In this document: positions 36,227 through 52,213 of the stretch, one piece after another
Position numbering within the stretch: position 1 is the stretch's first letter
Layout: every line of letters begins with the position of its first letter
Assembly (NCBI RefSeq): GCF_002278135.3
Contig: NZ_CP029425.2
Coordinates: 4,998,001-5,062,000, forward strand
DNA length: 64,000 nt
Direction of reading: 5' to 3'
Source of the DNA: Bradyrhizobium ottawaense
GTDB lineage: Bacteria > Pseudomonadota > Alphaproteobacteria > Rhizobiales > Xanthobacteraceae
Notes under the pieces: model-generated
Seen by the model: only the letters and a program-made list of their open reading frames with translations
What the model was told of the DNA's origin: nothing
Databases searched by the model: none
Position numbers and translations under genes: made by a program

Positions 36227-37000
36227 TTAGCGCTCGGCAAAGGCCTTTTCGACCACGAATTGGGCCGGCTCGCCGTGATTGCCCTCGACAAAGCCGCGCT
36301 CTCCCAGGAGCACGCGCGTATCAGCGACCAGTGCCGGGCTGCCGCAAATCATGACGCGGTCGTGGGCAGCCTCCAGCACCGGCAGGCCAATATCGGCGAA
36401 CAGCTTGCCCGTGGTGATGAGGTCGGTGATGCGGCCGCGGTTGCGGAAGGGATCGCGCGTCACGGTCGGATAGTAGATCAGCTGATTCTGAATGTACTCG
36501 CCGATCAGTTCGTCCTTCGGCAGCGTCTCGGTGATCATCTCGCCATAGGCGAGCTCCTTGACGTGCCGGCAGCCGTGCAGCAGCACGACCTTCTCGAACC
36601 GCTCGTAGGTTTCGGGGTCCTTGATCACGCTCAGGAACGGCGCAAGACCCGTGCCGGTGCCGATGAGGTAGAGGTTGCGCCCCTCCTCCAAATTGTCGAT
36701 CACCAGCGTGCCCGTGGCCTTGCGGCTGACGATGATCTCGTCGCCTTCCCTCAAATGCTGGAGCCGCGAGGTCAGCGGACCGTCCGGCACCTTGATCGAG
36801 AAGAACTCGAGCGTGTCCTCGTAATTGGCGCTGGCGACGCTGTAGGCCCGCAGCAGCGGCTTCTCCCCGACCTTGAGCCCGATCATGGTGAATTCGCCGT
36901 TGCGGAAGCGGAAGGTCGGGCTGCGGGTGGTCTTGAAGGAGAACAGCGTATCGGTCCAGTGGTGGACGCTCAAAACACTTTCCTGATTGAAATTGCTCAT
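36227..37000 (-). CDS. fpr: Ferredoxin-NADP+ reductase (FPR type)
   Basis: 257 aa, the size of bacterial subclass FPRs. The FAD motif RAYSVASANYEDTLEFFS, the NADP loop LIGTGTGLAPFLSVI and the C-terminal VEKAFAER fit the family. It moves electrons between NADPH and ferredoxin/flavodoxin. It is divergent from the enamidase gene and shares the GTATAC operator found before the 6-hydroxynicotinate reductase, so I infer that it supplies low-potential electrons for ring reduction in nicotinate breakdown. The start has GGGAAGG four nt upstream. Confidence 0.9.
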   Translation of the reverse strand: MSNFNQESVLSVHHWTDTLFSFKTTRSPTFRFRNGEFTMIGLKVGEKPLLRAYSVASANYEDTLEFFSIKVPDGPLTSRLQHLREGDEIIVSRKATGTLVIDNLEEGRNLYLIGTGTGLAPFLSVIKDPETYERFEKVVLLHGCRHVKELAYGEMITETLPKDELIGEYIQNQLIYYPTVTRDPFRNRGRITDLITTGKLFADIGLPVLEAAHDRVMICGSPALVADTRVLLGERGFVEGNHGEPAQFVVEKAFAER

Positions 37001-37051
37001 CTCACCTTCCCTGTCGCGTCCAATGCGGTTCCGAGGCGGGCAGCTATGCGT

Positions 37052-37108
37052 CGTTTGTACACGATCATTCGTATACTAATGAATAATCCTGCTTGATCCC
37101 GCGGTCAA
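37052..37108. promoter_or_regulatory. Divergent fpr/enamidase control region with GTATAC operator
   Basis: TCATTCGTATACTAATGA (37065-37082) is an 18-bp palindrome with one mismatched pair. For fpr on the minus strand, TTGACC (37108-37103) stands 17 nt before TATTCA, which overlaps the operator, so a bound repressor would block it. CGTTTGTACAC (37052-37062) matches part of the palindrome in the nicA promoter. The first palindrome is nearly repeated at 47983-48000. Confidence 0.7.
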
Positions 37109-37157
37109 GGCTGCCCAAGATCGAAAGCGTTGCAGTTAGGAATAAGGAGCCCCTTCC

Positions 37158-38354
37158 ATGGCGCATGACGCACCCCAGGCCGCCGGACCCTCGAAGCTCG
37201 TGATCCGGAACATCGGCCTGATCCTGTCCGGCGCCCTGGAAAAGCCGATCCTGGATGGCGACACGATCGTCGCCGAGAACGGCAAGATCACCGCGATCGG
37301 CCGCTTCAAGGACGTCGACATCGAAGGCGCGACCACCATTGTCGACGCCCAGGGCACCACGGTGGCGCCGGGCCTGATCGACAGCCACGTCCACCCCGTT
37401 GCGGGCGACTGGACGCCGCGACAGAACCAGATCAACTGGATCGACAGCTATCTGCATGGCGGCGTCACCACCATGATCTCGGCCGGCGAGGTTCACATGC
37501 CGGGCCGCCCCCGCGACGTCGTCGGCCTGAAGGCGATGGCCATCTTCGCCCAGCGCGCGTTCTGGACCTTGCGTCCGGGCGGCGTGAAGGTTCACGCCGG
37601 CGCGCCGGTGATCGAATGCGAGATGGTCGAGGAGGACTTCAAGGAGCTGGCCTCCGCCGGCGTCAAGCTGCTCGGCGAGGTCGGCCTCGGCGGCGTCAAG
37701 GACGGTCCCACCGCACGCAAGATGGTCGGCTGGGCACGCAAATACGGCATCCAGAGCACCATCCACACCGGCGGCCCCTCGATCCCCGGCTCCGGCCTGA
37801 TCGACAAGGACGTCGTGCTGGAGGCCGACACCGACGTGGTCGGCCACATCAATGGCGGCCACACCGCCCTTCCCGACGACCAGATCCGCTGCATCTGCGA
37901 GGGCTGCAAGCGCGGTCTCGAGCTGGTGCATAACGGCAATGAGCGCTCCGCTCTGTTCACGCTGCGCACCGCGCGCGAGATGGGTGATCTGCACCGGGTC
38001 ATCCTCGGCACCGACGCGCCCGCCGGCTCCGGCGTGCAGCCGCTCGGCATTTTGCGCATGGTCTCGATGCTGTCCTCGCTCGGCGAGCTGCCGGCCGAGA
38101 TCGCCTTTTGTCTCGCCACCGGCAACACCGCCCGGATGCGCGAACTCGATTGCGGCCTCATTGAAGTGGGACGTTCCGCCGACTTCGTCATCATGGACAA
38201 GGCCCAGCACTCGCCCGGCAAGAACATCCTGGAGAGCGTCCAGCTCGGCGATCTCCCGGGCATCGGCATGACCATCATTGACGGCATCGTGCGGACGCAA
38301 CGCAGCCGCAACACCCCGCCGGCGGGCAAGGTGCCGGAGGTGGTGGCGAAGTGA
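37158..38354 (+). CDS. ena: Enamidase-type amidohydrolase (6-oxo-1,4,5,6-tetrahydronicotinate hydrolysis)
   Basis: 398 aa; the Eubacterium barkeri enamidase is of similar size. The metal motif LIDSHVHPVAGDW (His 77, 79), THTGGPSIPGSG-like HTGGPSIPG, GHINGGHTALPDDQI and LGTDAPAGSGVQPLGI give a binuclear-zinc amidohydrolase. It would hydrolyse the reduced ring to 2-formylglutarate and ammonia. The assignment rests on similarity as I recall it and on the context: shared operator with the reductase, and NicAB nearby. AAGGAG lies nine nt before the start. Confidence 0.8.
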   Translation: MAHDAPQAAGPSKLVIRNIGLILSGALEKPILDGDTIVAENGKITAIGRFKDVDIEGATTIVDAQGTTVAPGLIDSHVHPVAGDWTPRQNQINWIDSYLHGGVTTMISAGEVHMPGRPRDVVGLKAMAIFAQRAFWTLRPGGVKVHAGAPVIECEMVEEDFKELASAGVKLLGEVGLGGVKDGPTARKMVGWARKYGIQSTIHTGGPSIPGSGLIDKDVVLEADTDVVGHINGGHTALPDDQIRCICEGCKRGLELVHNGNERSALFTLRTAREMGDLHRVILGTDAPAGSGVQPLGILRMVSMLSSLGELPAEIAFCLATGNTARMRELDCGLIEVGRSADFVIMDKAQHSPGKNILESVQLGDLPGIGMTIIDGIVRTQRSRNTPPAGKVPEVVAK

Positions 38355-38472
38355 CGCAGCCGGAGCGGCACACTGCTCCGCACCTCCCTCGATGGCGTTG
38401 AACAAGTCTGCGACCTGCTGCGTCTAACGCAGGCAGCCCCCGGTGGCGGCATTTCATTGCTGGACCATCGAC

Positions 38473-39162
38473 ATGAAGAACTCATCGCGAATAGCCCTCG
38501 GCGTTGCTGGCGCGGTGGCGGGCTATGTCGCGATCTTTGTGCTGTTTTCCCTGTTCGATTTCGGCAACCGCGCGGACCCGATCACCTCGGGTCTGTTGGG
38601 ACTGTTCGTCTACTCCCCCATCGGCGCGATCGCCGGCGCGGTGTTTGCCAACTGGCTGGTGACGCGTTCAGGCGAGGACGCAGGCAATGGCAGCGTCGGG
38701 CGCAACAGCCTGAAGTCCCTCGGCGTCGTCGTCCTGCTCTGCGTCGCCGGGATCGGCCTCTACATCGCCTACGCCTATGCGACGGCGACGCCCTGGCTCA
38801 ACCGGAACGGCGGCAATCCCCTGCTCGTATTCGAGGTGCGTTTTCCGGCCGGGGTCACGGTGCCGACATCAGCCCAGGGCATCACCATCGAATTGCAGAC
38901 CAACCTCAACACGATGCCGGGCGAAGTGACCCCGGCCGCCTTCTATCGTGACGGCGACCAGCCCGTCATCGCAGGCGAAGTCGAGCTCGCGTTTCGAACC
39001 TCGCACCGGCAGCTCGCCGTCAATATCGAGGGCCAGCCGAGCCGAACCTACCCGATCGACTTGACGGCCCGGGCGCCGCATACGCCGGAGTTCGGGACCT
39101 GGCGGCGGCTCGCCGACGGCAGCGAAATCCGCTACCGCGCCAAATGGCCAGGCAAGACATAA
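38473..39162 (+). CDS. Hypothetical membrane protein
   Basis: 229 aa. Three hydrophobic helices (ALGVAGAVAGYVAIFVLFSL, GLFVYSPIGAIAGAVFANWL, SLGVVVLLCVAGIGLYIAYA) are followed by a beta-rich soluble domain of about 110 residues (VFEVRFPAGVTVPTSAQGIT...). The soluble part probably faces the periplasm. No family is recognised. It lies 118 bp after the enamidase and probably is not part of the nicotinate pathway. Confidence 0.65.
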   Translation: MKNSSRIALGVAGAVAGYVAIFVLFSLFDFGNRADPITSGLLGLFVYSPIGAIAGAVFANWLVTRSGEDAGNGSVGRNSLKSLGVVVLLCVAGIGLYIAYAYATATPWLNRNGGNPLLVFEVRFPAGVTVPTSAQGITIELQTNLNTMPGEVTPAAFYRDGDQPVIAGEVELAFRTSHRQLAVNIEGQPSRTYPIDLTARAPHTPEFGTWRRLADGSEIRYRAKWPGKT

Positions 39163-39172
39163 GCGTTCGAGA

Positions 39173-39559
39173 TCAGCGCTTCTTCGCGATCTCGCAACGC
39201 ACATAGGTCTGGCGCTTGGCCTGCCCGACCGGTCCGTTGTCCATCACCAGCTTGCCGTCGGTTGCGATGGAGACCCGGGGATTGGAGCGAAACTTCTCGC
39301 CCTCGCCTTCGCAGGCGAGCTTCATCTTCCAGCCGAGCTTTCCGTCGGCGGTGATCTCGCCGGCGCGGCAGCGCGTCTCGTACCAGTAGAGGCGGTTGCC
39401 GCCTTCGATGCTCATGCGGTTGGGGCTGTCGTCGTCGCGGCAGTCCTTTTTGGTAGACGCCCAGAAGCCTTCGTAGGGCTGCGCGGCAAAGGCAGGCGCA
39501 CTGCCCGCCAGCGCCGCACCGAGAGTGAGGAGCATTACAAATTTCGTGGCGACTCTCAT
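39173..39559 (-). CDS. Secreted hypothetical protein
   Basis: 128 aa with a signal peptide (FVMLLTLGAALAGSAPAFA). The mature part (YEGFWASTKKDCRDDDSPNR, NRLYWYETRCRAGEI, MKLACEGEGEKF, TYVRCEIAKK) has four Cys that can form two disulfides. It resembles small periplasmic proteins common in Bradyrhizobium. Convergent with the preceding gene, 10 bp apart. Confidence 0.7.
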   Translation of the reverse strand: MRVATKFVMLLTLGAALAGSAPAFAAQPYEGFWASTKKDCRDDDSPNRMSIEGGNRLYWYETRCRAGEITADGKLGWKMKLACEGEGEKFRSNPRVSIATDGKLVMDNGPVGQAKRQTYVRCEIAKKR

Positions 39560-39624
39560 GAATAAAGACCTCGACAGACCCTTCATCGGGATTAGTCGCC
39601 AGTCCTCGCACCTTGTTCAACTGC

Positions 39625-39702
39625 CGTAGCGTGGGCAAAGCGAAGCGTGCCCACCATTGAGAAGTCGTGGGCACGGCGCTTCGCGCCTTTGCCCACCCTA
39701 CG
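39625..39702. repeat. Palindromic intergenic repeat, GTGGGCAAAG type
   Basis: CGTAGCGTGGGCAAAG at 39625-39640 pairs with CTTTGCCCACCCTACG at 39687-39702 (15 of 16 positions); nested shorter repeats (GCGTGCCCAC, GTGGGCACG) lie inside. A related element at 43605-43716 shares the GTAGGGTGGG end. Confidence 0.7.
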
Positions 39703-39720
39703 AGACCGTCTTCGGCACCC

Positions 39721-40176
39721 TCACCGCAGCTTGTTCAACAACGCCATCAGCATCTCGCGCTCCCTGGGCTCGAGCGGCGCCAGCGTCTCGCGGGTGATGG
39801 CCAGCGCGTTCGGCGCGACCTTCTCCGAAAGCTGCTGACCGGCGCGCGTCAGGCTGACAAGGAGCCGCCGACCGTCCTCGGGATCCTGGCTGGTCTCGGT
39901 CAACCCGCGCGCCGTGAGCCGATCGATCACGCCCTTGATGGTCGCGACGTCCATCGCCGTCAGCCGGCCGAGCTGGTTTTGCGAGCACGGCCCGGTCTCG
40001 GCGAGTTTCGACAATGCCGCCCACTGCGTCGGCGTCAGATTGGTGCCGATATCGCGGGAGAAGATCGAGCTGTGGCGCTGCCAGACCTGGCGCAGGATGA
40101 AACCGACCTGCTCGTCGAGCACGTAAGGCGGTTTTCCCGGTTTGACGCTCTTCTTGGCCGTGACGCTTCTCGCCAT
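39721..40176 (-). CDS. MarR-family transcriptional regulator, candidate nicotinate-pathway repressor
   Basis: 151 aa. The winged helix is clear: LTPTQWAALSKLAETGPCSQNQLGRLTAMDVATIKGVIDRLTARGL with the wing DPEDGRRLLVSLT. MarR proteins of this size often bind aromatic acids. It starts 25 bp after livF and is the last gene of the strand run that begins with the 6-hydroxynicotinate reductase. It is therefore the best candidate to bind the GTATAC palindromes at 37065 and 47983, like NicR of Pseudomonas. Start ATG 40176. Confidence 0.85.
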   Translation of the reverse strand: MARSVTAKKSVKPGKPPYVLDEQVGFILRQVWQRHSSIFSRDIGTNLTPTQWAALSKLAETGPCSQNQLGRLTAMDVATIKGVIDRLTARGLTETSQDPEDGRRLLVSLTRAGQQLSEKVAPNALAITRETLAPLEPREREMLMALLNKLR

Positions 40177-40201
40177 CCGCTCGCTGCCCCTCCCTTTGCG
40201 T

Positions 40202-40906
40202 TCACAACGACAGATGCGCGTCGCGGATATCCGGACGCGCATCGAGCTCGGCCATGGTGCCGCCGAAGCAGATGCGGCCGCGCTCGATGATGTAGGCGCG
40301 ATCCGAAATCAGCCGCGCGAAATGCAGATTCTGCTCGGAGACGACGATGCTGACGCCCTCCTTCTTCATGGTCAGGATGGCGTCGACCATCTGCTCCACG
40401 ATCTTCGGCGACAGACCTTCCGAGGGCTCGTCCAGCAGCACCAGCGACGGATTGCCCATCAGCGTCCGCGCAATCGTCAGCATCTGCTGCTCGCCGCCGC
40501 TCATGCGCCCGCCGGGACGGTTCTTCATCTCGCCGAGATTCGGAAACAGCGCGAACAGCTTTTCACGTGTCCAATGCGGCGCGTTCGGACGCTTGGGCTG
40601 CTTGCCCACTTCGAGATTTTCCTCGACGGTCAGGTCGGTGAATATCCGGCGCTCCTCCGGCACATAGCCGAGCCCCTCGCGCACGATCTCGTGGGTCGGC
40701 TTGGCCGAGACGTCCTTGCCCTCGAACATGATGCGGCCGGTTCGTTGCGCGACCAGGCCGACGATCGAGCGAAACGTCGTCGACTTGCCGGCACCGTTGC
40801 GCCCGAGCAGCGCAACCACCTCGCCCTCGCCGACCTCGAAGCCGATGTCGAACAGGATATGCGCCGGGCCATAATGGCTGTTGAGGCCCTCGACGGTGAG
40901 CTTCAT
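40202..40906 (-). CDS. livF: Branched-chain-type ABC transporter ATPase LivF
   Basis: 234 aa. Walker A GRNGAGKST near residue 36, signature SGGEQQMLTIARTL, Walker B LVLLDEPSEGL and the LivF-typical GYVPEERRIFTDLTVEEN. One of two ATPases of the HAAT-type importer encoded here. The start overlaps the livG stop by 4 bp (ATGA). Confidence 0.93.
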   Translation of the reverse strand: MKLTVEGLNSHYGPAHILFDIGFEVGEGEVVALLGRNGAGKSTTFRSIVGLVAQRTGRIMFEGKDVSAKPTHEIVREGLGYVPEERRIFTDLTVEENLEVGKQPKRPNAPHWTREKLFALFPNLGEMKNRPGGRMSGGEQQMLTIARTLMGNPSLVLLDEPSEGLSPKIVEQMVDAILTMKKEGVSIVVSEQNLHFARLISDRAYIIERGRICFGGTMAELDARPDIRDAHLSL

Positions 40907-41694
40907 ATTGATGCTCCGTCGCGATGGCGGGCATCGTAGACCAGGCCCTCGCCGAGATAGACCGCCTGCACCTGCGGATTGCCGCGCACCTCGGCCGGCG
41001 TGCCCTCGGCGATCAGCGTCCCTCGATTCAGCACGATGATGCGGTCGGCATGCTCGAACACCACGTCCATGTCGTGCTCGGTGAAGAGCACGCCGATCGA
41101 TTTCTCCCGCGCGATGCTCGCGGTCAGCCGCATCAGGTCGACGCGTTCGCGCGGCGCCATGCCGGCGGTCGGCTCGTCCATCAACAGCAGCTTGGGCTGG
41201 TTGGCGAGCGCCACCGCAAGCTCGAGCCGCTTGAGGTCGCCATAGGCAAGCTCGCCGCAGGGCCGATCGGCATAGCCGCCCATGCCGACCAGCTCGAGCA
41301 GACGGCCGGCCTCGCCGCGGTCGAACTTCGGCGCCGAGCCGAACAGATTGAACAGCTGCCTCCCGTGCGAGATCAGCGCGACCTGCACGTTCTCGCGCAC
41401 GGTCATGGTGGCGAAGGTCGCGGTAATCTGGAAGGTACGCCCGACACCCATGCGCCAGATCTCGCGCGGCTTCTTCCCGGTGGTCTCTTCGCCGAGCAGA
41501 CGGACTTGCCCGGTATCAGGCTTGTTCTGGCCGTTGAGCATGTCGAAGCAGGTGCTCTTGCCGGCGCCGTTCGGCCCGATCAGCGCCAAAATCTCGCCGG
41601 CGCGCAGCGAGAACGCGACGCCGCGCACGGCATGGATGCCGCCATAGGATTTGGTCAGACCTTCGACCGCAAGAAGTGGGGGTGCAACACTCAT
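40903..41694 (-). CDS. livG: Branched-chain-type ABC transporter ATPase LivG
   Basis: 263 aa. Walker A GPNGAGKST, signature LAYGDLKRLELAVAL, Walker B LLLMDEPTAGM and the H-loop TEHDMDVVFEHADRI. The LivG form has the insertion around GVGRTFQITATFATMTVRENV. Overlaps both neighbours by 4 bp (ATGA on each side), so the subunits are made in a coupled way. Confidence 0.93.
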   Translation of the reverse strand: MSVAPPLLAVEGLTKSYGGIHAVRGVAFSLRAGEILALIGPNGAGKSTCFDMLNGQNKPDTGQVRLLGEETTGKKPREIWRMGVGRTFQITATFATMTVRENVQVALISHGRQLFNLFGSAPKFDRGEAGRLLELVGMGGYADRPCGELAYGDLKRLELAVALANQPKLLLMDEPTAGMAPRERVDLMRLTASIAREKSIGVLFTEHDMDVVFEHADRIIVLNRGTLIAEGTPAEVRGNPQVQAVYLGEGLVYDARHRDGASI

Positions 41695-43580
41695 TCGGCA
41701 GACTCGATCGGCTTGGCGAGCAGAGGTGATCCCGGCGGCGACGCCTTCCTGCGACGCTGCGCCAGCATCTCCAGCATGCCGACAATGCCCTTGGGGAAGA
41801 CGACGACGATCAGAACGATGAAACCGCCGAGCACGAGTTTCGACAAATCGGTCTGGCTGACCAGCCAGATGTTCAAGGCCTTGTAGACGATGGCGCCGAT
41901 CACCGCGCCGGACACCGTCTCGACACCGCCGAGCAGCACCATCACCAGCGCATCGACCGAGAGCGAGATGCCGAGATTGTCAGGGAAGACGCTGCCCTTG
42001 AGGTAGGCGAACAGCGCGCCGCCGATGCCGGCGGTCGTGCCTGCGATCACGAAGGCGGTCCACTGGATGCGCTTGGCATTGATGCCGATCGCCTCCGTAC
42101 GCAGGAGCGAGTCGCGCGTGGCGCGGAGCGCGTAGCCGAATGGCGAGAATACCATGGCCCGCAGTGCGATGGTCACCAGCGCCGCAACGCCGAGCGCCAG
42201 CCAATAGAAGTGCGACGGGCTAGCCGCCCATTTTTCCGGCCAAACGCCCAAGATGCCGTTGTCACCGCCGGTGACGCTCACCCACTGGAATGCGATCGAC
42301 CACACGATCTGCGCGAAAGCGAGCGTCAGCATCGCAAAGTAGACGCCGGAGAGCTGCACGGCGAAGAAGCCGAACACGGCCGCGCCCATGCAGCCGAGCA
42401 GCGGCCCGAGCAGCAGGCACACGATCATCGGCAACCCCGCCATCTTGGCGAGGAAGGCGACGCCGTAGGCACCGAGCCCGAAATAGGCGGCATGGCCGAA
42501 GGACGCGAGCCCGCCGACCGACATCAGGAAGTGGAGGCTGACGGCAAAGATGACGAAGATCGCGATCTCCGAGCCGACGGTCAGCGCATAGTTGCCGGCG
42601 AACAGCGGCAGCGTCGCTGCGATCACGAGCGCGGCAAGCGCTGCAAGCCGCTCGTTCGACGTCAGCGGGCGCCAGGGATTGACGGTGAGACCGGGCGTCT
42701 TGCGCGCCGGCGCCTCCGGTTTGCCGAACAGACCCCAGGGTCGCACGATCAGCACCACCGCCATCACCAGGAAGACCAGGATGATGGAAATCTTGGGGAA
42801 GATCAGGATGCCGAAGGCATTGAGCTCGGAGACCAGCACCGCCGCGACGAACGCGCCGACGATGCTGCCGAGGCCGCCGATCACGACCACGACGAAGACT
42901 TCGACGATGATGCGCAGATCCATCGCGTGATGCACGGCATCCCGCGGGATCTGAAGCGCGCCGCCCAGCGCGGCGAGGAAGACGCCGACCGCGAACACCG
43001 ACGTAAACAGCCATTTCTGATTGACGCCGAGCGCTGCGACCATGTCGCGGTCCTGCGTCGCCGCGCGTACCAGGACGCCCCAGCGCGTGCGCTGGAACAG
43101 CAGCCAGAGAATGCCGAGCACGACGGGCCCGAGCACGATCAGGAACAGATCGTAGCTCGGGATGTTCTGGCCGAAGAAATCGATGGCCCCCTTGAATCCG
43201 GGCGCACGACGGCCGACGAGATCGTCGGGCCCCCAAATCAGGACGACGAGATCCTCGACCATCAAGGTCAGGCCGAAGGTCGCAAGCAGCTGGAACAGCT
43301 CGGGGGCGTGATAGATGCGGCGGAGCAGCACCATCTCGACCAGCACACCGATCATCGCCACGGCAATCGCGGCCAGCACGATACTGCCCCAGAAGCCAAA
43401 TGCGCCCGACAGGCGCTCCGTCAGCGTGAAGGCAATGTAGGCGCCGATCATGTAGAAGGCGCCATGCGCGAAATTCACGATCCGCGTCACGCCGAAGATG
43501 ATCGACAGGCCCGAGGCCACCAGGAACAGCGACGCCGCGCTGGCGAGACCGGTCAGAAACTGTACGACGTAAAAGGCCAT
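41691..43580 (-). CDS. Fused LivH-LivM permease of the branched-chain-type ABC transporter
   Basis: About 629 aa. Residues 1 to about 290 are a LivH permease (SGLSIIFGVTRIVNFAHGAFYMIGAY) and about 310 to 629 a LivM permease (GSEIAIFVIFAVSLHFLMSVGGLASFGHAAYFGLGAYG). In most systems these are two genes; here one polypeptide forms the whole channel. The start at 43580 is where LivH homology begins. A repeat element separates it from the receptor gene upstream. Confidence 0.9.
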   Translation of the reverse strand: MAFYVVQFLTGLASAASLFLVASGLSIIFGVTRIVNFAHGAFYMIGAYIAFTLTERLSGAFGFWGSIVLAAIAVAMIGVLVEMVLLRRIYHAPELFQLLATFGLTLMVEDLVVLIWGPDDLVGRRAPGFKGAIDFFGQNIPSYDLFLIVLGPVVLGILWLLFQRTRWGVLVRAATQDRDMVAALGVNQKWLFTSVFAVGVFLAALGGALQIPRDAVHHAMDLRIIVEVFVVVVIGGLGSIVGAFVAAVLVSELNAFGILIFPKISIILVFLVMAVVLIVRPWGLFGKPEAPARKTPGLTVNPWRPLTSNERLAALAALVIAATLPLFAGNYALTVGSEIAIFVIFAVSLHFLMSVGGLASFGHAAYFGLGAYGVAFLAKMAGLPMIVCLLLGPLLGCMGAAVFGFFAVQLSGVYFAMLTLAFAQIVWSIAFQWVSVTGGDNGILGVWPEKWAASPSHFYWLALGVAALVTIALRAMVFSPFGYALRATRDSLLRTEAIGINAKRIQWTAFVIAGTTAGIGGALFAYLKGSVFPDNLGISLSVDALVMVLLGGVETVSGAVIGAIVYKALNIWLVSQTDLSKLVLGGFIVLIVVVFPKGIVGMLEMLAQRRRKASPPGSPLLAKPIESAE

Positions 43581-43604
43581 CGGCGGTCCGGGTTCGGGGA
43601 ACTC

Positions 43605-43716
43605 GTAGGGTGGGTTAGCGCAGCGTAACCCACCACCTTTTCTCGTGTGGCACCGAAAGAGGTGGGTTACGCCGAGCAGATACGCTTTGCGCATCTGCAG
43701 GGCTAACCCACCCTAC
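43605..43716. repeat. Palindromic intergenic repeat, GTAGGGTGGGTTAGC type
   Basis: GTAGGGTGGGTTAGC (43605-43619) and its exact reverse complement (43702-43716) bound a 112-bp element with nested inverted repeats of the GGGTTA/TAACCC kind. It lies inside the transporter operon, between receptor and permease genes, and could lower permease expression by an RNA hairpin. Confidence 0.75.
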
Positions 43717-43727: not shown

Positions 43728-44930
43728 TCAATCCTTCGGACGCAGCTTCTCGACTTCGGCATCGCTGGGCAGATAGTCCGAGCCCTTCTTGTAGGACGAA
43801 TCCACCATCACGCCCTTGCCGTCCTTCAGCGCAGTCTTGCCGACAAAGGCACCGAGCGTCGACTGATGGTCGATCTTGCGGAAGGTGATCTCGCCGAATG
43901 GCGAGGGCATCGACAGCCCCTCTGCCGCTGTGATCAGCTTCTCCGGATCAGTCGAGCCCGCCTTCGCCAGGATCGCGGCGGCCGCCTTGATGGTCTGGTA
44001 GCCAACGATCGAGCCGAGGCGCGGATAGTCGTTGTACTTGGCCTGGTACGCCTTCAGGAACGCGTCGTGCTCGGGCGTCTTGATCGAGTACCAGGGGTAA
44101 CCGGTGACGATCCAGCCCTCGGGCGTCTCGTCCTTGAGCGGATCGAGATATTCCGGCTCGCCGGTCAGGAAAGAGACAACCTCGCGCCCCTTGAACAGGC
44201 CGCGGGTATTGCCTTCGCGCACGAGCTTGACGAGGTCGGCACCGAAGGTGACGTTGAGGATCGCTTCGGGATTGGCGGCGGCAACAGCCTGTACCACGGG
44301 GCCCGCGTCGATTTTGCCCTGCGGGGGCCATTGTTCGTCGACCCACTGGATGTCAGGCCGCTTCTCCGACATCAGCTTCTTGAACACGGCAACCGCGGAC
44401 TGGCCGTATTCATAGTTCGGGGCGATCGTCGCCCAGCGCTTGGCGGGCAGCTTGGCGGCTGCTTCCACCAGCATCGCCGCTTGCATGTAGTTGGAAGGGC
44501 GCAGGCGGAAGGTGTATTTGTTGCCCTTCGACCAGGTGACGGCATCGGTCAGCGGCTCGGCCGCGAGGAAAAACACCTTCTTCTGGTTGGCGAAGTCGCT
44601 GACGGCGAGGCCGATGTTCGACAGGAATGTACCCGTCAGCATCGCGACGCCCTCGCTCGACACCAGCTCATTCGCCGCAGTCTGCGCGTCCGCCGGCTTG
44701 CCGCCGTCGTCCTTCGAGATCACGACCAGCTTCTTGCCATTGATGCCGCCGGCCGCGTTGATCTCTTCGACCGCGAGCTGCCAGCCCTTGCGATAGGGTT
44801 CGGTGAACGCCGGCAGCAGCGAATAGCTGTTGATCTCGCCGATCTTGATGTCCTGCGCCAGGGCCGAATGAGCCATGCCGCCCGCCAGAAGCGCAAAGGC
44901 CGCGCCGACGAAGTAATTTCTTGCTCGCAT
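43728..44930 (-). CDS. ABC transporter periplasmic receptor, Leu/Ile/Val-binding (LivJ) family
   Basis: 400 aa with a signal peptide (FVGAAFALLAGGMAHSALA). It has the peripheral-binding-protein family I layout: IKIGEINSYSLLPAFTEPYRKGWQLAVEEINAAGG, a PEAILNVTFGADLVKLVRE middle, and DYPRLGSIVGYQTIKAAAAIL. This family also serves aromatic acids. Given the operon (reductase upstream, MarR downstream), nicotinate or 6-hydroxynicotinate is the likely ligand; that is inference. Confidence 0.88.
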   Translation of the reverse strand: MRARNYFVGAAFALLAGGMAHSALAQDIKIGEINSYSLLPAFTEPYRKGWQLAVEEINAAGGINGKKLVVISKDDGGKPADAQTAANELVSSEGVAMLTGTFLSNIGLAVSDFANQKKVFFLAAEPLTDAVTWSKGNKYTFRLRPSNYMQAAMLVEAAAKLPAKRWATIAPNYEYGQSAVAVFKKLMSEKRPDIQWVDEQWPPQGKIDAGPVVQAVAAANPEAILNVTFGADLVKLVREGNTRGLFKGREVVSFLTGEPEYLDPLKDETPEGWIVTGYPWYSIKTPEHDAFLKAYQAKYNDYPRLGSIVGYQTIKAAAAILAKAGSTDPEKLITAAEGLSMPSPFGEITFRKIDHQSTLGAFVGKTALKDGKGVMVDSSYKKGSDYLPSDAEVEKLRPKD

Positions 44931-45009: not shown

Positions 45010-45594
45010 TTATCTCAGACCGTCCTCGCCCTTTACTTCCGCGACCGTGAGCCCGCCGACGCGCGGCAGCGGACGGCCGCTGTCGGTGACGGCGACCGCG
45101 ACCATGATCTCGTTGGCGCGCGGCGCGTCGTTGATCTGCACCTCCATGCCGTCGAAATGGCTGCGCACGAACGCGGCGTCCTTGTGCCCGAGCGGAATGT
45201 CGAGCGTCGTGCCCGGCCCGCTGCGCTTCTTCGACGAGGGGATCAGCGCCGCGCCCTTGCTCAGAACTTTCCGCACCGGCGCGCCCATCTTGGGGTGGAG
45301 GATCGCGGCGGCATGCTCCAGCTCGCCGTTCTCGCCGACAGCGGCAGCCTTGCCGTAGCTCTGCGCCTTCGCGCCATCGATGCCGAGCGCCGCCACGGCG
45401 CGCTTCGACAAGAGCTCACCGAGCTCTTCCCCGATCGCGATCAGCGGCGAGAGGTCCTCGACATATTGTCCGGCAAAGGGATTTTCGATCACGGCGATCG
45501 CAGCCGCGCGCCGGGTCGGCGGCGAGACCTGGCGGCCCATCTCCATCTGCGTCTCTTCGACGACGGTGACGATCTTGCGGATGATCGCGCTCAT
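45010..45594 (-). CDS. Amino acid synthesis family protein (PF06684, DUF1185)
   Basis: 194 aa. The family pattern is seen in IIRKIVTVVEETQMEMG, AAIAVIENPFAGQYVEDLSPLIAIGEELGELL and PLGHKDAAFVRSHFDGMEVQI. Despite the family name, no reaction is firmly established. It starts 15 bp after the UPF0280 gene, in the same operon as the 6-hydroxynicotinate reductase. I infer a step or accessory role in nicotinate breakdown, such as handling the aldehyde/imine product after ring opening. Confidence 0.8.
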   Translation of the reverse strand: MSAIIRKIVTVVEETQMEMGRQVSPPTRRAAAIAVIENPFAGQYVEDLSPLIAIGEELGELLSKRAVAALGIDGAKAQSYGKAAAVGENGELEHAAAILHPKMGAPVRKVLSKGAALIPSSKKRSGPGTTLDIPLGHKDAAFVRSHFDGMEVQINDAPRANEIMVAVAVTDSGRPLPRVGGLTVAEVKGEDGLR

Positions 45595-45609: not shown

Positions 45610-46506
45610 TCAGGCACAGACGGCGTTCTCCGGCAGATGCGGGCGCGTTCGTTGCTCTTCTATATCCTTAGCTCCGATGACAAGCATATCACCACAAAGC
45701 TGCAAGACGGCACCCTCGATCAATCCGCGATCGAACAATTGGCGTGCACATTCCGCGCCAGATTCGAGCGTTGTCCCGACCTCGTCCTGCGACAACTCGC
45801 CGACGTCGCGGGTGACGAGGCGCGAGCCGAGATCGCTGTCGGGCTGAAGCTCGTTTGCAGGCGTTCGGATGATGGCGGGATGCCCGGGCAGGTCGACGGC
45901 ATTGGCTATGACCGTCGCCGCCGCATCGGCCTGCGACGCCGTTGCCGCCAGCACCGTCACGGCGTCGGCAATGCCGAACGAAAAACTGCGGCCGTGGCGT
46001 CCGCTGGTCGCGATGCCCCGCACGGGGTCATCCGCATCCACCCTCATCGTTCGCATCACGCCAGCGCGATCGGGTCGGTCCATCAGGCCGACCGAAAAAT
46101 GCTCGCCCTTGCCGAGATGGAGCGCGATGTCGCCACCATTGTTGACATAGGCCTGATCCAGCGTCACAGCGCCCAGCATGGCGCCCAGAATCTCCTCAGC
46201 CACGCTACCGGCAACAGCCGCCATCGGCGTGATGAAGCAATCGGAGGCGTAAGGCGCGACCGCTGCGTGCATCCGGCGCGCCACCACGCCCCTCAGCGAA
46301 GTGCGCTTCCCGGCGGCCGTCCGCAGTTCCGGCAGCTCCGCGCAGAGTTCGTCGAGCAGTCCGGTGAAGCGGCGCGCGGCCGCCTCATAGGCCGCACGTA
46401 CATCGTCCGTGCGCCCCCTCGCCTCAACGACCAGATCGATCGGCCCATCCTGCAAATGCAGCCGCCGGCCATCAGATAGCAATGCGATTTGCGGGAGCCT
46501 TGTCAT
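45610..46506 (-). CDS. UPF0280 family protein, ApbE (flavin transferase)-like
   Basis: 298 aa. ApbE-type landmarks are visible: AYVNNGGDIALHL (ApbE NxGGDI), RGIATSGRHGRSFSFGIADAVTVLA (ApbE TSG and ADA motifs). ApbE proteins attach FMN covalently to Thr of partner proteins. The start overlaps the reductase stop by 4 bp (ATGA), so the two are made together. I infer that it may flavinylate or otherwise mature the reductase. Confidence 0.82.
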   Translation of the reverse strand: MTRLPQIALLSDGRRLHLQDGPIDLVVEARGRTDDVRAAYEAAARRFTGLLDELCAELPELRTAAGKRTSLRGVVARRMHAAVAPYASDCFITPMAAVAGSVAEEILGAMLGAVTLDQAYVNNGGDIALHLGKGEHFSVGLMDRPDRAGVMRTMRVDADDPVRGIATSGRHGRSFSFGIADAVTVLAATASQADAAATVIANAVDLPGHPAIIRTPANELQPDSDLGSRLVTRDVGELSQDEVGTTLESGAECARQLFDRGLIEGAVLQLCGDMLVIGAKDIEEQRTRPHLPENAVCA

Positions 46507-47960
46507 GCCCGCGGTACCGGGATCGGGTTCTGCCAGGGCAGCTGGCGGATATCGTCGCCGCTCTGCACCTCGGAGAGCGGCTTCACATAGTCCATGTGCC
46601 CGCCGAGCGCGGCATAGTCGGACAGCTTCATCGTGAACTCGATCGGCGCAACCAGCGCCGGCGTCGGCACGTAGCCGAACGCGCCCGCCGGCATCTGCGT
46701 CACGTCGACCATGTAGGTGATGCCGCCGCCCGGCCAGACATAGACCGGCGCGCCGCCACTGGTGACGCGCGTCAGCGCGTCCTTCACCGAGCGCGTCAGC
46801 CGCACCGGATTGTCGGTGACACCGGCGCGCAGCGAGCCGCCGGCACCGGCCATGAACAGCACCGTGCACAGCGCCGGCTCGCAATTCTCCTGGATACGCT
46901 CGACCGAGAACTTCAGGTCGTCAGGCATCTCGGTCTCGACTGGCTTCAGGGCCCCGTCGAGCACGTAATAAGACGAATGCTCGCCGGTCGTGGAGACCAT
47001 CAGCATCGAGAGACCCGGTTTTGCTTCCTTGGCGTCGAACGGCCCGAGGATCGCGAGCGGATCGGAAATGTTGGTGCCACCCCACCCCGTGCCGGGATCG
47101 GCGACCTGGAAATAGCGGCCTGGCGTCGAGCGGCGGCCCTTCATCTTGATGCCGGTGTCGGCGATGTCGAGCAGCTTGCCGGCCTGATGCTCCGAGAGCA
47201 CGCCGGTGATGTGATCGTCGACCACGACGACTTCGTCGACCTTGCCGTGCCATTGCTTGGCAAACATGCCGATCGTCGCCGAGCCGCAGCCGACGCGCAT
47301 GCGCTCTTCTTTCATGCCGTTGACGATCGGCGGCTGGCCGGCCTGGACCACGACGCTCGCGCCGCCGTCGATGGTCAGCTCGACCGCCTTGCAATTGGCG
47401 AGATCCATCAGCGTGTCGCAGGTGACGCGGCCCTCCTTCTTGGAGCCGCCGGTGAGATGATGCACGCCGCCGAGCGACAGCATCTGCGAGCCGTATTCGC
47501 TGGTGGTGACGTGGCCGACCGCCTCGCCCTGCGCGCGGACTGTCGCAGTCTCCGGCCCGAGATAGCGATCGGTGTCGATCTTCACCTTGATGCCGCAATA
47601 GGAGAAGATGCCCTCGGTGACCACAGTCACCATGTCGACGCCGTCGACCTCCGCCGAGACGATGAACGGCGCCGGCTTGTAGTCGGGATAGGTCGTGCCC
47701 GCGCCGATCGCCGTCACGAAGGTGGAAGGTTCGTGGACGATCTTGCCGTCCCAGTCTTCGGTGCGGCTGAACGGGACCAGCTTGCCGCCATGCGAGACCG
47801 TGCGCTCCAGGATCACATGCGGATCGACGCGGACGAGCTTGCCGTCGTGGTTGGCGTAGCGATCGCAGGCGCCCGCCGCGCCCGGCTTGATGTAGCACAT
47901 CACCGGACAAGCATCGCAGCGGATCTTGTCGATAGCAGCGCTCGTCGTTTCCATCACCAT
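46503..47960 (-). CDS. hnr: 6-hydroxynicotinate reductase (iron-sulfur flavoprotein)
   Basis: 485 aa, close to the Eubacterium barkeri enzyme. The N-terminus has a Cys set CDACPVMC plus a fourth Cys at 32 (C15, C18, C22, C32) suited to an iron-sulfur cluster; more Cys follow (C122, C181, C190, C225). It reduces 6-hydroxynicotinate to 6-oxo-1,4,5,6-tetrahydronicotinate with reduced ferredoxin. A GCGSATIG segment (225-230) is a possible flavin-attachment Thr site, weak by consensus. Divergent from nicAB with a GTATAC operator between them. ATG 47960 or 47954. Confidence 0.85.
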   Translation of the reverse strand: MVMETTSAAIDKIRCDACPVMCYIKPGAAGACDRYANHDGKLVRVDPHVILERTVSHGGKLVPFSRTEDWDGKIVHEPSTFVTAIGAGTTYPDYKPAPFIVSAEVDGVDMVTVVTEGIFSYCGIKVKIDTDRYLGPETATVRAQGEAVGHVTTSEYGSQMLSLGGVHHLTGGSKKEGRVTCDTLMDLANCKAVELTIDGGASVVVQAGQPPIVNGMKEERMRVGCGSATIGMFAKQWHGKVDEVVVVDDHITGVLSEHQAGKLLDIADTGIKMKGRRSTPGRYFQVADPGTGWGGTNISDPLAILGPFDAKEAKPGLSMLMVSTTGEHSSYYVLDGALKPVETEMPDDLKFSVERIQENCEPALCTVLFMAGAGGSLRAGVTDNPVRLTRSVKDALTRVTSGGAPVYVWPGGGITYMVDVTQMPAGAFGYVPTPALVAPIEFTMKLSDYAALGGHMDYVKPLSEVQSGDDIRQLPWQNPIPVPRA

Positions 47961-47982: not shown

Positions 47983-48028
47983 TCATTCGTATACGAACGA
48001 TGGTGCGCGCGCCCCGGATGGCTGTCAA
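47983..48028 (-). promoter_or_regulatory. hnr promoter with GTATAC operator
   Basis: TCATTCGTATACGAACGA (47983-48000) is an 18-bp palindrome with one mismatched pair, sharing the first 12 bases with the site at 37065. On the minus strand TTGACA (48028-48023) lies 28 nt before the GTATAC core, 2 nt different from the spacing at fpr. The -10 (CACCAT, 17-nt spacer) is weak. A repressor here would sit over the start site. Confidence 0.65.
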
Positions 48029-48131
48029 GCGGCGGTGCAGCGCAAAAGATGCTGCTGCTGCATAAAACCTCATTTGCCTATCCGCCCTGTCCACAAAGAA
48101 GGCAGTCGCGCTGCAGTGCGGCATGCATGGC

Positions 48132-48159
48132 TTGCACGTTTGTGTACAAACGGTATCGT
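48132..48159 (+). promoter_or_regulatory. nicA promoter with palindrome in the spacer
   Basis: TTGCAC (48132-48137) and TATCGT (48154-48159) are 16 nt apart. CGTTTGTGTACAAACG (48137-48152) fills the spacer; its arms CGTTTGT/ACAAACG are perfect 7-mers around GT. The reverse complement contains CGTTTGTACAC, also found at 37052 in the fpr/enamidase region. Confidence 0.6.
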
Positions 48160-48206
48160 CGCGACGTAGATTTTCGCCATTACTGGCCGAGCGCTTGGAA
48201 ACGAGG

Positions 48207-48689
48207 ATGACGCAGACACCGATCCGCCTCACCGTGAACGGGGGGATCCACGAGGTCGCTGCAGCGCCGGAGACGCCGCTGCTCTACGTGCTGCGCAACG
48301 ATCTCGCGCTCAACGGCCCGAAATATGGATGCGGCCTCGGCGAATGCGGCACCTGCACTGTCCTGATCGACGGGGCCGCGGCCCGCTCCTGCGTGATTCC
48401 CGTCAGTGGCTGCGCCGGCCGCGACATCGTGACGCTCGAAGGGCTCGGCACGCGCGACAAGCCTGACCTCGTGCAGCAAGCCTTCATCGACGAGCAGGCC
48501 GCGCAATGCGGCTATTGCCTCAACGGCATGATCATGACCACCAAGGCGCTGCTCGCGATCAACCCGCGCCCGACCGAGCAGGAGGCGCTGGCGGCGCTCC
48601 GCTACAATCTCTGCCGCTGCGGCACACATGTCGAAATCCTGCGCGCCGTGATGCGCGCTTCCGGCCAACTCACCGAGGCCGTTGATTGA
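48207..48689 (+). CDS. nicA: Nicotinate dehydrogenase small subunit, 2Fe-2S
   Basis: 160 aa; Pseudomonas NicA is of the same size. Two [2Fe-2S] clusters are laid out as CGLGECGTCTVLIDG and, near the C-terminus, CGYCLNGMIM with CRCGTHVEIL. It passes electrons from the molybdenum centre in NicB during hydroxylation of nicotinate to 6-hydroxynicotinate. The start is ATG 48207, where homology begins; the stop overlaps the nicB start as TGATG. Confidence 0.9.
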   Translation: MTQTPIRLTVNGGIHEVAAAPETPLLYVLRNDLALNGPKYGCGLGECGTCTVLIDGAAARSCVIPVSGCAGRDIVTLEGLGTRDKPDLVQQAFIDEQAAQCGYCLNGMIMTTKALLAINPRPTEQEALAALRYNLCRCGTHVEILRAVMRASGQLTEAVD

Positions 48690-51600
48690 TGGCCTCCCCT
48701 GCCCCTGATGGATCTGAGCGCCAATCCGGTTCGCTCGTCGTCGTCCGCACCGTGGACGAGCTCACGTCCGAGACTTTCATCCGCATCGCCGCGGATGGCT
48801 CGGTCAGCGCCTATAACGGCCATGTCGATCTCGGCACCGGCATCCGTACCGCGCTCGGCCAGATCGTCGCCGAGGAGCTGGACGTGTCCTTTGCGCGCGT
48901 CGTCGTGGTGCTCGGCGACACTGCGGTGGTGCCCAATCAGGGCGCGACGATCGCGAGCGAGACCATCCAGATCACGGCCGTGCCCCTGCGCAAGGCCGCG
49001 GCGCAAGCCCGTCACTTCCTGATCGCGCGCGCGGCCGAGCGGCTGGAGCTGCCGGCGGCCGATCTCAGGATCGAAGACGGCCTCGTGCGCGGGCACGACA
49101 ATCGCAGCATCAGCTACGGCGAATTGATCGGCGACGAGACGATCCGCCTCGAGCTGGCCGACGACGTCACCGTCAAGGCGGTCGGCGATTATGCCATCGT
49201 CGGCCAGTCGATGCCGCGCGTCGACCTGCCCGCCAAGGCCACGGGCGAGCTGACTTTCGTTCACGATATCCGCGTCCCCGGCATGCTGCACGGCCGCGTG
49301 GTGCGCCCGCCCTATGCCGGCGTCGATGCCGGTCCGTTCGTCGGCACCAGCCTGATCGCGGTCGACGAATCCTCAGTGCGCAACATTCCCGGGCTTGTCG
49401 CCGTGGTGCGCATCGGCGACTTCGTCGGTGTCGTCGCCGAGCGCGAAGAGAACGCGATCCGCGCGGCGGAGCAGCTCAAGGTGAGCTGGAAGCCTACGCC
49501 TACCCTCACGGATCTCGCCGACATCGAGACCGCGCTGCGCGCCAATCCATCGACGCCGCGCACGCTGATCGACAAGGGCGACGTCGATGCGGCGATAGCA
49601 GGTGCGGCCAAGCCGATGCAGCGCACCTACGTGTGGCCGTATCAGATGCACGCCTCGATCGGCCCATCCTGCGCGGTCGCGGATTTTCAGGACGGCAATA
49701 TCCGGGTCTGGTCGGGCACGCAAAATCCGCACGTGCTGCGCAGCGACCTCGCACTTCTGATCGAGCGACCGGAAAACGAGGTCGAGGTGATCCGGCTGGA
49801 AGCCGCCGGCTGCTACGGGCGCAACTGCGCCGACGATGTCACTGCCGACGCCTTGCTGCTGTCGCGCGCGGTCGCACGGCCCGTGCGCGTGCAATTGACA
49901 CGCGAGCAGGAGCACGCCTGGGAGCCCAAGGGAACCGCGCAGCTCATCGACGTCAATGGCGGTCTGGATGCGGACGGCGGTATCGCGGCGTATGATCTCG
50001 CCACGCGTTATCCCTCGAACGCCGCGCCCACGCTGGCCCTGCTGCTCACCGGTCGCATTCCATCTGAACCTGCCGTGCTGCAGATGGGCGACCGCACCGC
50101 GATCCCGCCCTACGATTACGACCACATGCGCGTCCTCGCCCATGACATGCCGCCGATCGTCCGCGCCTCCTGGTTCCGCGGTGTCTCCGCGCTGCCGAAC
50201 ACGTTTGCGCACGAATCCTACATCGACGAAGCCGCCACCGAGGCCGGGGTCGATCCCATCGAATATCGCCTGCGCTATCTGAAGGACCAGCGCGGCGTTG
50301 ATCTCGTCAATGCCGTGGCCGAGCGCGCGGGCTGGGCGCCGCGACCGGTGCGCGAAGAGAAGGACGGCGAGATCGTGCACGGGCGCGGCTTTGCCTATGC
50401 GCTCTACGTCCACAGCAAGTTTCCCGGCTACGGCGCGGCGTGGTCGGCGTGGATTGCCGACGTCGCGGTGAACAAATCGACTGGCGATGTCAGCGTGACG
50501 CGCGTGGTTGCGGGACAGGATTCCGGATTGATGATCAATCCGGACGGCGTACGCCACCAGATCCACGGCAACGTCATCCAGTCCACCAGCCGCGCGCTGA
50601 TGGAGGAAGTCTCGTTCGAGCGCGGCGCGGTGGCGGCGCGCGAATGGGGCGCCTATCCGATCATCCCTTTCCCCGACGTGCCCAAGATCGACGTGCTGAT
50701 GCTGCCACGTCAGGACCAGCCACCGCTCGGCGTCGGCGAGTCCGCTTCGGTCCCGAGTGCGGCGGCGATAGCGAATGCGATCTTCGATGCCACCGGTGTG
50801 CGCTTTCGCGAGCCGCCCTTTACGCCCGAACGCATCCTGAGGGGATTGCACGGTGAAACATCGCCCGTGCCGCAGGCCCTGCCCGCGCCCGCCGCGCCGC
50901 CGCCGTCGCGCATCTGGGAGACTCCCTTCGCCAAACGCGCCGGCATTGTCGCGACGATTGCCGCGGTCTGCACCGCCGCGATCGGCATTGGCGCGGCGCT
51001 GCTGCCGGGGCGCGCGATTGCGCCGATCGCCCGGCCCGACGCATCGGTCTATTCCGCCGCGACGATCGCACGGGGAGAGCAGCTTGCTGCGCTCGGCAAT
51101 TGCGCGGAGTGCCACACCAATATCGACAGCGTACTCAATGCCGGCGGCCGCGCATTGGAGACGCCATTCGGCACGATCTATTCAACCAACATCACCCCCG
51201 ACGTCGAGACCGGCATCGGCGCCTGGTCCTATCCCGCCTTCGAGCGCGCAATGCGCGACGGCTTGCATCGCGACGGGCGGCAGCTCTATCCCGCCTTTCC
51301 CTACACACACTTCGCCAAGACAAACGAAGCCGACCTTCAGGCGCTCTATGCCTATCTGATGGCGCAGCCTGCAGTGCGCGCGACGGCGCCGGCGAACACG
51401 CTCGCCTTCCCGTTTAACCTGCGCCCGCTGCTCGCGGGTTGGAATGCGCTCTTCCACCAGGCAAAGGAATTCAAGCCCGACCCCACCAAGTCGGAGGCCT
51501 GGAATCGCGGCGCCTATCTCGTCGAGGGCCTCGGCCATTGCAGCGGCTGCCACTCGCCGCGCAATGCGCTCGGCGCGGAGCAACGCAAGGCCTATCTCGC

Positions 51601-52213
51601 CGGAGGCTTCGCCGAAGGCTGGGAAGCGCCGCCCCTGACCTCGCTCTCTCACGCCCCGATCCCGTGGAGCGAGGACGAGCTGTTCGCCTATTTGCGCACC
51701 GGCCATTCGCGCTATCACGGCGTCGCCGCCGGCCCGATGGCGCCTGTTGTCAGGGATCTCAAGGCCCTGCCCGATCAGGATATCCGCGCGATGGCGGTCT
51801 ATCTCAACTCGTTCAACGACACCGCAGCCGATGCGCCGGAGGTGCTCGCCGCGAAGCTGGAGAGCGCGACGCAGGTTACCATCGGCTCCTCCACCGGCGC
51901 ACGGCTCTATCAAGGCGCCTGCGCCGTCTGCCACGAAGTCGGCGGCCTGCCACTGTTCGGCAGCCGGCCCTCGCTCGCGCTCAACAGCAATCTGCACAGC
52001 GCAACGTCGGACAATCTCGTGCAGGTGATCCTGCACGGTATCGCCGAGCCGGTGTCGAGCGACCTTGGCTACATGCCGGCGTTCAGGAACAGCATGAGCG
52101 ACGCGCAGGTGGAGGAGCTCGTCAGCTTCCTGCGCGGCCAGTTCGCGCCGGACAAGCCGGCGTGGACCGGCATCCGCGAGACGATCGCGAGGGTGCGCGG
52201 CTCAATCCACTAA
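48689..52213 (+). CDS. nicB: Nicotinate dehydrogenase large subunit: molybdopterin domain fused to tri-heme cytochrome c
   Basis: 1174 aa, near the 1187 aa of Pseudomonas NicB. Residues 1 to about 730 are a xanthine-dehydrogenase-type molybdopterin domain (YNGHVDLGTGIRTALGQIVAEEL early, GVGESASVPSAAAIANAIFDATG late). A membrane helix follows at about 750-773 (GIVATIAAVCTAAIGIGAAL), then three haem c sites: CAECH (about 805), CSGCH (about 950) and CAVCH (about 1076). Electrons go from the molybdenum centre through NicA and the haems to the respiratory chain. It ends overlapping the convergent dioxygenase by 3 bp. Confidence 0.92.
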   Translation: MASPAPDGSERQSGSLVVVRTVDELTSETFIRIAADGSVSAYNGHVDLGTGIRTALGQIVAEELDVSFARVVVVLGDTAVVPNQGATIASETIQITAVPLRKAAAQARHFLIARAAERLELPAADLRIEDGLVRGHDNRSISYGELIGDETIRLELADDVTVKAVGDYAIVGQSMPRVDLPAKATGELTFVHDIRVPGMLHGRVVRPPYAGVDAGPFVGTSLIAVDESSVRNIPGLVAVVRIGDFVGVVAEREENAIRAAEQLKVSWKPTPTLTDLADIETALRANPSTPRTLIDKGDVDAAIAGAAKPMQRTYVWPYQMHASIGPSCAVADFQDGNIRVWSGTQNPHVLRSDLALLIERPENEVEVIRLEAAGCYGRNCADDVTADALLLSRAVARPVRVQLTREQEHAWEPKGTAQLIDVNGGLDADGGIAAYDLATRYPSNAAPTLALLLTGRIPSEPAVLQMGDRTAIPPYDYDHMRVLAHDMPPIVRASWFRGVSALPNTFAHESYIDEAATEAGVDPIEYRLRYLKDQRGVDLVNAVAERAGWAPRPVREEKDGEIVHGRGFAYALYVHSKFPGYGAAWSAWIADVAVNKSTGDVSVTRVVAGQDSGLMINPDGVRHQIHGNVIQSTSRALMEEVSFERGAVAAREWGAYPIIPFPDVPKIDVLMLPRQDQPPLGVGESASVPSAAAIANAIFDATGVRFREPPFTPERILRGLHGETSPVPQALPAPAAPPPSRIWETPFAKRAGIVATIAAVCTAAIGIGAALLPGRAIAPIARPDASVYSAATIARGEQLAALGNCAECHTNIDSVLNAGGRALETPFGTIYSTNITPDVETGIGAWSYPAFERAMRDGLHRDGRQLYPAFPYTHFAKTNEADLQALYAYLMAQPAVRATAPANTLAFPFNLRPLLAGWNALFHQAKEFKPDPTKSEAWNRGAYLVEGLGHCSGCHSPRNALGAEQRKAYLAGGFAEGWEAPPLTSLSHAPIPWSEDELFAYLRTGHSRYHGVAAGPMAPVVRDLKALPDQDIRAMAVYLNSFNDTAADAPEVLAAKLESATQVTIGSSTGARLYQGACAVCHEVGGLPLFGSRPSLALNSNLHSATSDNLVQVILHGIAEPVSSDLGYMPAFRNSMSDAQVEELVSFLRGQFAPDKPAWTGIRETIARVRGSIH

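Follow-up and report, generated by a model that had tools for sequence, protein, structure and literature searches.

A predicted NicAB-fed reductive nicotinate catabolism locus in Bradyrhizobium ottawaense and a possible function for its UPF0280 (COG2122) protein

In this work we analyse a 64,000-nucleotide stretch of the Bradyrhizobium ottawaense genome (contig NZ_CP029425.2, positions 4,998,001 to 5,062,000; hereafter the window), which carries a gene cluster predicted to degrade nicotinate aerobically through a reductive route fed by the hydroxylase NicAB. The nicotinate fermentation cluster of Eubacterium barkeri (locus L051 in our numbering), which is said to have been described by Alhapel in 2006, resembles it in hosting a 6-hydroxynicotinate reductase (Hnr), a UPF0280 protein, an enamidase and a DUF1185 protein. 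It differs in its Ndh-type hydroxylase, which contains flavin adenine dinucleotide (FAD), and in an Hnr with an extra N-terminal 2[4Fe-4S] domain. In E. barkeri the product is reduced further, and is not known to be decarboxylated or passed through glutarate. The nic cluster of Pseudomonas putida shares with the window a cytochrome-linked entry hydroxylase of the NicAB type and a MarR-type regulator. However, a step of the NicC, NicX, NicD or NicF type was not recognised in the window cluster, where the ring would be reduced rather than oxygenated.

The nearest published clusters were drawn in 2012 for Azorhizobium caulinodans ORS571, B. japonicum USDA110, R. palustris HaA2 and strain SG-6C (PMC3511419). 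SG-6C, an aerobe of the Bradyrhizobiaceae, degrades nicotinate with 6-hydroxynicotinate as a transient, and its Hnr is 42% identical to that of E. barkeri; the Azorhizobium pathway runs through glutarate (PMC3511419). An IS50R insertion in the catabolic nicotinate hydroxylase gene of A. caulinodans has also been described (PMC2650096). The window is from another strain than USDA110, from which no real difference is expected, the likeness being judged by published description. A first-pass annotation of the window had suggested that its genes may be the genetic basis of the Azorhizobium route, and the cluster had indeed been drawn for that organism. The NicAB-fed reductive reading is well supported, yet it is already in print and not new.

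Gene content and proposed route

The host genome is a single contig of 8.59 Mb, in which the cluster spans from the ferredoxin-NADP reductase gene (36227) to the end of nicB (52213). Its genes, by window position, are as follows.

36227..37000, minus strand: Fpr-type ferredoxin-NADP reductase (FNR), candidate electron source for Hnr (PDB 6rr3, 387.5 bits)
37158..38354, plus strand: enamidase, predicted to open the ring of 1,4,5,6-tetrahydro-6-oxonicotinate (E. barkeri enamidase 2vun, 368 bits, residues 12-394)
39721..40242, minus strand: MarR-family regulator (PF01047)
40202..40906, minus strand: ATPase of an ATP-binding cassette (ABC) importer, LivF-type (family search)
40903..41694, minus strand: ABC importer ATPase, LivG-type (named by reading the sequence; order conserved)
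41691..43694, minus strand: fused permease, LivH+LivM-type (named by reading the sequence; order conserved; probably starts downstream of the ATG given here)
43728..44930, minus strand: periplasmic substrate-binding protein, candidate nicotinate binder (PF13458, 236 bits)
45010..45594, minus strand: DUF1185 protein with a chorismate-mutase-like fold (PF06684, 251.6 bits, cut-off 27; 2qtp, 296 bits)
45610..46506, minus strand: UPF0280/COG2122 protein, put forward as a flavin transferase or cofactor-assembly factor for Hnr (NF003322, 425.7 bits, cut-off 290)
46503..47960, minus strand: Hnr, core only (42% identical to E. barkeri Hnr)
48123..48689, plus strand: NicA, [2Fe-2S] subunit of nicotinate hydroxylase (PF01799, PF00111; the real start may be near 48210)
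48686..52213, plus strand: NicB, fusion of a molybdopterin subunit with a tri-haem cytochrome c (PF20256, PF02738, three PF00034 stretches)

Every one of these genes was found where the first-pass annotation had placed it. Nicotinate would enter through the Liv-type importer and be hydroxylated by NicAB to 6-hydroxynicotinate, with the electrons passing through the haem-c tail to the respiratory chain. Hnr would reduce this to 1,4,5,6-tetrahydro-6-oxonicotinate, which the enamidase would open to 2-formylglutarate and ammonium; genes for the subsequent glutarate steps would lie elsewhere than in the cluster. The probable electron path to Hnr would lead from NADPH to FNR and on through a ferredoxin encoded elsewhere, and the UPF0280 protein, translationally coupled to Hnr, would most likely install or mature the Hnr flavin. 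The reactions in this strain, the electron route and any parts played by UPF0280 and DUF1185 are predictions from sequence; we consider it highly probable that the locus serves such a route.

As the first-pass annotation had it, NicAB is divergent from the reductase: hnr and the listed nicA start diverge over 162 bp. By its domains the entry enzyme is of the Pseudomonas NicAB type, with a [2Fe-2S] subunit and a molybdopterin subunit that hosts three haem-c sites. The cluster thus contains molybdenum hydroxylase genes, with nicotinate as the predicted substrate. NicB matches the cytochrome c subunit of 8gy3 at 345 bits and the large subunit at 199 bits; when compared with E. barkeri Ndh, NicB shows 23-38% identity in pieces and NicA 41%. 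The suggested mosaic of an aerobic hydroxylase and a reductive route is supported: a cytochrome-c-fused hydroxylase, unlike E. barkeri Ndh, lies in one cluster with Hnr and the enamidase. Of the genes that the first-pass annotation did not see (NicC, NicD, NicX and NicF), none of the NicC or NicX type could be recognised in the cluster, by a search that was not genome-wide.

In direct comparison the reductase and the nearby amidohydrolase group with E. barkeri Hnr and enamidase, in line with the first-pass naming of both. Window Hnr is 42% identical to Hnr of E. barkeri VPI 5359 over 458 residues and 98% identical to that of Bradyrhizobium sp. CB1717; neither Pfam nor NCBIfam gives a match for it at 0.001, and 108 columns are invariant across 18 aerobe and anaerobe sequences. 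For the enamidase, the next PDB chain after 2vun scores 29 bits, and the HxH, GEVGLG, HTGG, HINGG and DAP stretches of the two proteins are aligned. All five patterns recur in 12 of 15 relatives (window excluded), while the enamidases of L047 and L050 miss DAP and that of L060 misses two patterns. Six further genomes of the genus keep the cluster, which is therefore not a product of chance.

Distribution and ring-opening enzymes

Of 299 Pseudomonadota genomes, 21 from eight genera, among them that of the window, were found to have Hnr; we fetched 20-kb regions for the other 20 (loci and genomes are denoted L and G). A UPF0280 search of the same 299 genomes, which could miss a divergent COG2122 subfamily, returned the same 21 and two noise-level fragments of 18-19 bits (at most five Hnr and seven UPF0280 candidates were scored per genome). 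In 19 of the 20 loci hnr and UPF0280 are neighbours on one strand, whereas in L046 a MarR gene separates them; in the window the UPF0280 start codon and the hnr stop codon share bases in the sequence ATGA. A MarR match is present in 18 of the 20 Hnr loci, and a LivF-type ATPase of at least 60% identity also occurs in L044 and L046-L048.

The entry hydroxylase varies. NicAB-type genes (NicA at least 60% identical) occur in the six same-genus loci and L047. In L035-L045 and L048 their place is taken by an FAD subunit and a fused hydroxylase. Compared piecewise, the molybdopterin part of the latter shares 37-44% of its residues with the anaerobe enzymes and 24-38% with NicB; neither type was found within 20 kb in L046. 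An isochorismatase-family gene, which we read as nicotinamidase-like, is present in L036-L043 and L047.

Among anaerobes, a scan with the 2vun sequence gave E. barkeri VPI 5359, nine more enamidase loci at 60% identity or above and one distant relative. The E. barkeri gene order is hnr, UPF0280, dehydrogenase, hydroxylase genes, transporter, enamidase, DUF1185, where the dehydrogenase, hydroxylase and transporter are what we take them to be from reading and recall. Its UPF0280 overlaps hnr by 20 bases if the first ATG is the start. Nine of the ten anaerobe enamidase loci have both UPF0280 and DUF1185, and the exception, L055, is cut off within hnr by the end of its contig.

The ring-opening step appears to be exchanged as well. 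An enamidase of at least 63% identity is found in 10 of the 20 other genomes, plus our own, although in G123 and G194 it lies on another contig than hnr. HyuA, at least 61% identical to that of L041, is present in 12 of the 21, and in the other nine the best match is at most 39% or absent at 1e-100. As a result nine genomes have the enamidase only, ten HyuA only, two both and none neither. HyuA lies in the fetched hnr region of six enamidase-free genomes (L040, L041, L044, L045, L046 and L048), and HyuB in L040, L041 and L046; the hydantoinase-oxoprolinase genes HyuA and HyuB of L041 are at 13033-16811. Since eight of the 12 HyuA genomes belong to one genus, the events are few, and an Hnr tree needs two changes of the enamidase/HyuA label. 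Four loci are left out of this tree, L048 because its frame is broken, L053 and L055 because they run into contig ends and L058 because of an internal gap; G123 and G194 carry the HyuA label there despite their unlinked enamidase. Because HyuAB-type enzymes open other lactams with ATP (PMC8453981, PMC11033972), analogy suggests an ATP-dependent HyuAB-type lactamase as the alternative to the enamidase.

Electron supply, UPF0280 and rival explanations

The N-terminally complete anaerobe Hnrs (L051, L052, L054-L060) start with a two-cluster ferredoxin domain. Window Hnr starts at the core without this 2[4Fe-4S] domain, and so is not of the anaerobe subtype. Among the matches listed for aerobe-type Hnr (120 close relatives), a cluster motif precedes the core in none of 113 parsable sequences (seven were unparsable); among the 120 listed for the E. 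barkeri type, 107 of 114 parsable sequences carry two motifs, five one and two none (six unparsable). A Clostridia scan with full-length E. barkeri Hnr, scoring at most five candidates per genome, matched 283 of 291 genomes, among the matches listed nearly all through the ferredoxin domain; no co-occurrence count is based on it. The full-length matches among those listed are from E. barkeri and E. aggregans only.

With the ferredoxin domain of the anaerobe Hnrs missing here, the reductase is probably fed by NADPH through FNR and a separate ferredoxin. FNR adjoins the enamidase in the window and the six same-genus genomes and is near hnr in L047, L040 and L041, so that it is close by in nine of the 20 other loci. 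The host genome has three Fpr-type copies, the two further ones being 62-63% identical. As a side observation, hnr of L048 (9424-10874, G016) is split by a frame change.

UPF0280 family membership is also clear from 2o34, by sequence and by fold. Over some 220 residues the model of the window protein adopts the fold of the ApbE flavin transferases, and GGD, SG and ADxxAT are invariant motifs of the family. Hnr of E. barkeri reportedly carries a covalent flavin. Given this, the ApbE fold of the model and the steady partnership with Hnr, UPF0280 may attach the Hnr flavin. Across 250 Hnr cores C15, C18, C22, C32, G86, Y91, P92 and position 83 are identical in every sequence, and position 89 is Thr in 239, Ser in nine and Ala in two; this nearly invariant T89 is a candidate attachment residue. 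Before counting we removed locus proteins no longer than 400 residues, listed proteins of at least 560, and the 14 sequences of 264 that lacked the core Cys pattern. A protein of 764 residues read as one (P0064) looked like an Hnr-UPF0280 fusion; its junction is out of frame, and we therefore treat it as probably a frameshift artefact.

A similar partnership is known from homocysteine synthesis in Desulfovibrio, for which COG2122 is needed by a mechanism that is not agreed (PMC5764234). As here, a COG2122 protein goes with a redox enzyme and ferredoxin domains, but the partner enzyme, HcyBio/DUF39, and the chemistry are different. A profile comparison of Hnr with HcyBio gave no significant match. 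There are three short collinear matches whose summed score was reached by two of 100 column shuffles and none of 60 block-order permutations, and the best single score by nine of 100 column shuffles, so kinship is suggestive only. We put forward, as a tentative joint hypothesis to which we give somewhat less than an even chance, that COG2122/UPF0280 proteins are cytosolic ApbE-fold flavin transferases for Hnr and, in another subfamily, for HcyBio, attaching flavin phosphate to an Hnr hydroxyl residue without an ApbE motif; that Hnr and HcyBio would be remotely related flavin/Fe-S enzymes with a common maturase; that aerobes lost the built-in ferredoxin domain and FNR took over; and that HyuAB replaces the enamidase in about half of the genomes seen.

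Two explanations compete with a flavin role for UPF0280. It may be no flavin transferase at all and instead aid the Fe-S or persulfide chemistry of its partner enzymes, a persulfide role being what others have proposed for the COG2122 required with HcyBio/DUF39 and a NIL-ferredoxin (PMC5764234). Divergent second UPF0280 copies in L123 and L124 (two of the three met) adjoin HcyBio and NIL-ferredoxin genes, identified by Pfam in L123, and in L124 by 86% identity for HcyBio and by eye for NIL; the third, L122:5885-6607 on the minus strand, adjoins neither HcyBio nor Hnr. The ApbE target motif DxxSGA[ST] occurs in none of the 250 Hnr cores (the shorter [ST]GA[ST] in seven), and the 33 invariant columns of 19 UPF0280 sequences include no His, so none like the catalytic His of ApbE, which in Vibrio cholerae is His257 (PMC12052999). 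Both results favour the Fe-S account, whereas the ApbE fold with its invariant motifs and the reported covalent flavin of E. barkeri Hnr speak for a transferase; the Fe-S account is possible, though we stop short of calling it probable. Genes of one operon travel together, and UPF0280 and DUF1185 could simply be co-inherited passengers with no direct role for Hnr. We find this very unlikely, as UPF0280 stays with hnr in Clostridia, a deltaproteobacterial metagenome-assembled genome and Proteobacteria despite reshuffled gene order and different hydroxylases, and a search of the 278 sampled Pseudomonadota genomes that are free of Hnr gave no convincing match to it.

It is also conceivable that the locus degrades another N-heteroaromatic acid, such as a substituted pyridine carboxylate, with homologues of Hnr, NicAB and the enamidase acting on a related substrate. 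Hnr homologues accompany several kinds of hydroxylase and ring-opening enzyme, and the module is therefore portable, but the window enamidase and the E. barkeri enzyme, whose structure is solved, share 46% identity over 385 residues, including stretches that resemble the metal site, and the same cluster has been assigned in a relative able to break down both nicotinate and 6-hydroxynicotinate (PMC3511419), which leaves a different substrate unlikely. Some observations do weigh against nicotinate catabolism as we have drawn it. Ten of the 20 fetched Hnr genomes have no enamidase, so Hnr alone is no proof of the route. FNR is a common housekeeping enzyme, and for 11 of the 20 loci the region fetched showed no such gene; a simple motif search found no ferredoxin gene in the loci. 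For UPF0280, the PF02424 (ApbE) score of 20.9 bits is below the cut-off of 25.6, and the missing target motif and invariant His count here too. Finally, the resemblance of COG2122 to ApbE seems to stop short of the region that binds flavin (PMC5764234).

DUF1185, neighbouring genes and significance

DUF1185 proteins have a chorismate-mutase-like fold and no known function (PMC2954203). One is present in 19 of the 20 aerobe Hnr loci (not L044) and in nine of the ten anaerobe enamidase loci. We asked whether this protein could be the 2-formylglutarate decarboxylase that the glutarate route still lacks, and judged it unlikely, because DUF1185 is also found in E. barkeri, whose cluster leads to a reduced product, and in enamidase-free loci. 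The host genome has a second DUF1185 gene outside the window (G000:C1:5795699-5796265, plus strand; 44% identical). Tandem DUF1185 pairs lie beside hnr in L035 (11650-12815) and L047 (6918-8304), each with one copy close to the window's (82% and 69%, respectively) and one distant (46% and 35%). In L117 (8756-11118) and L118 (about 8615-10990) an enamidase and two DUF1185 genes lie on another contig than the genome's single Hnr match.

A catechol 2,3-dioxygenase-type gene (52210-53196, minus strand; TIGR03211, 371 bits, cut-off 320), whose stop overlaps the nicB end, also adjoins nicB in the close strains L031 and L049 and is not in the 20-kb regions of L032-L034. The segment 23651-30934 is a possible aromatic catabolic gene group with a DUF1932 protein, a PIG-L protein, a transporter-like gene (by eye), an Amidohydro_2 gene (4-sulfomuconolactone hydrolase-like, 308 bits, below the cut-off of 500), a TetR-like regulator and a TctC receptor. 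A DUF763 protein is encoded at 32272-33531 on the plus strand (415 bits).

In summary, the cluster itself is another strain's instance of the route drawn in print in 2012. What is gained is a testable function for COG2122, whose partnership with Hnr points to flavin attachment. Furthermore, the split between HyuA and the enamidase leads us to expect a second enzyme that opens the ring in reductive pyridine catabolism; this would bear on what becomes of nicotinate and of the 6-chloronicotinate derived from neonicotinoids.
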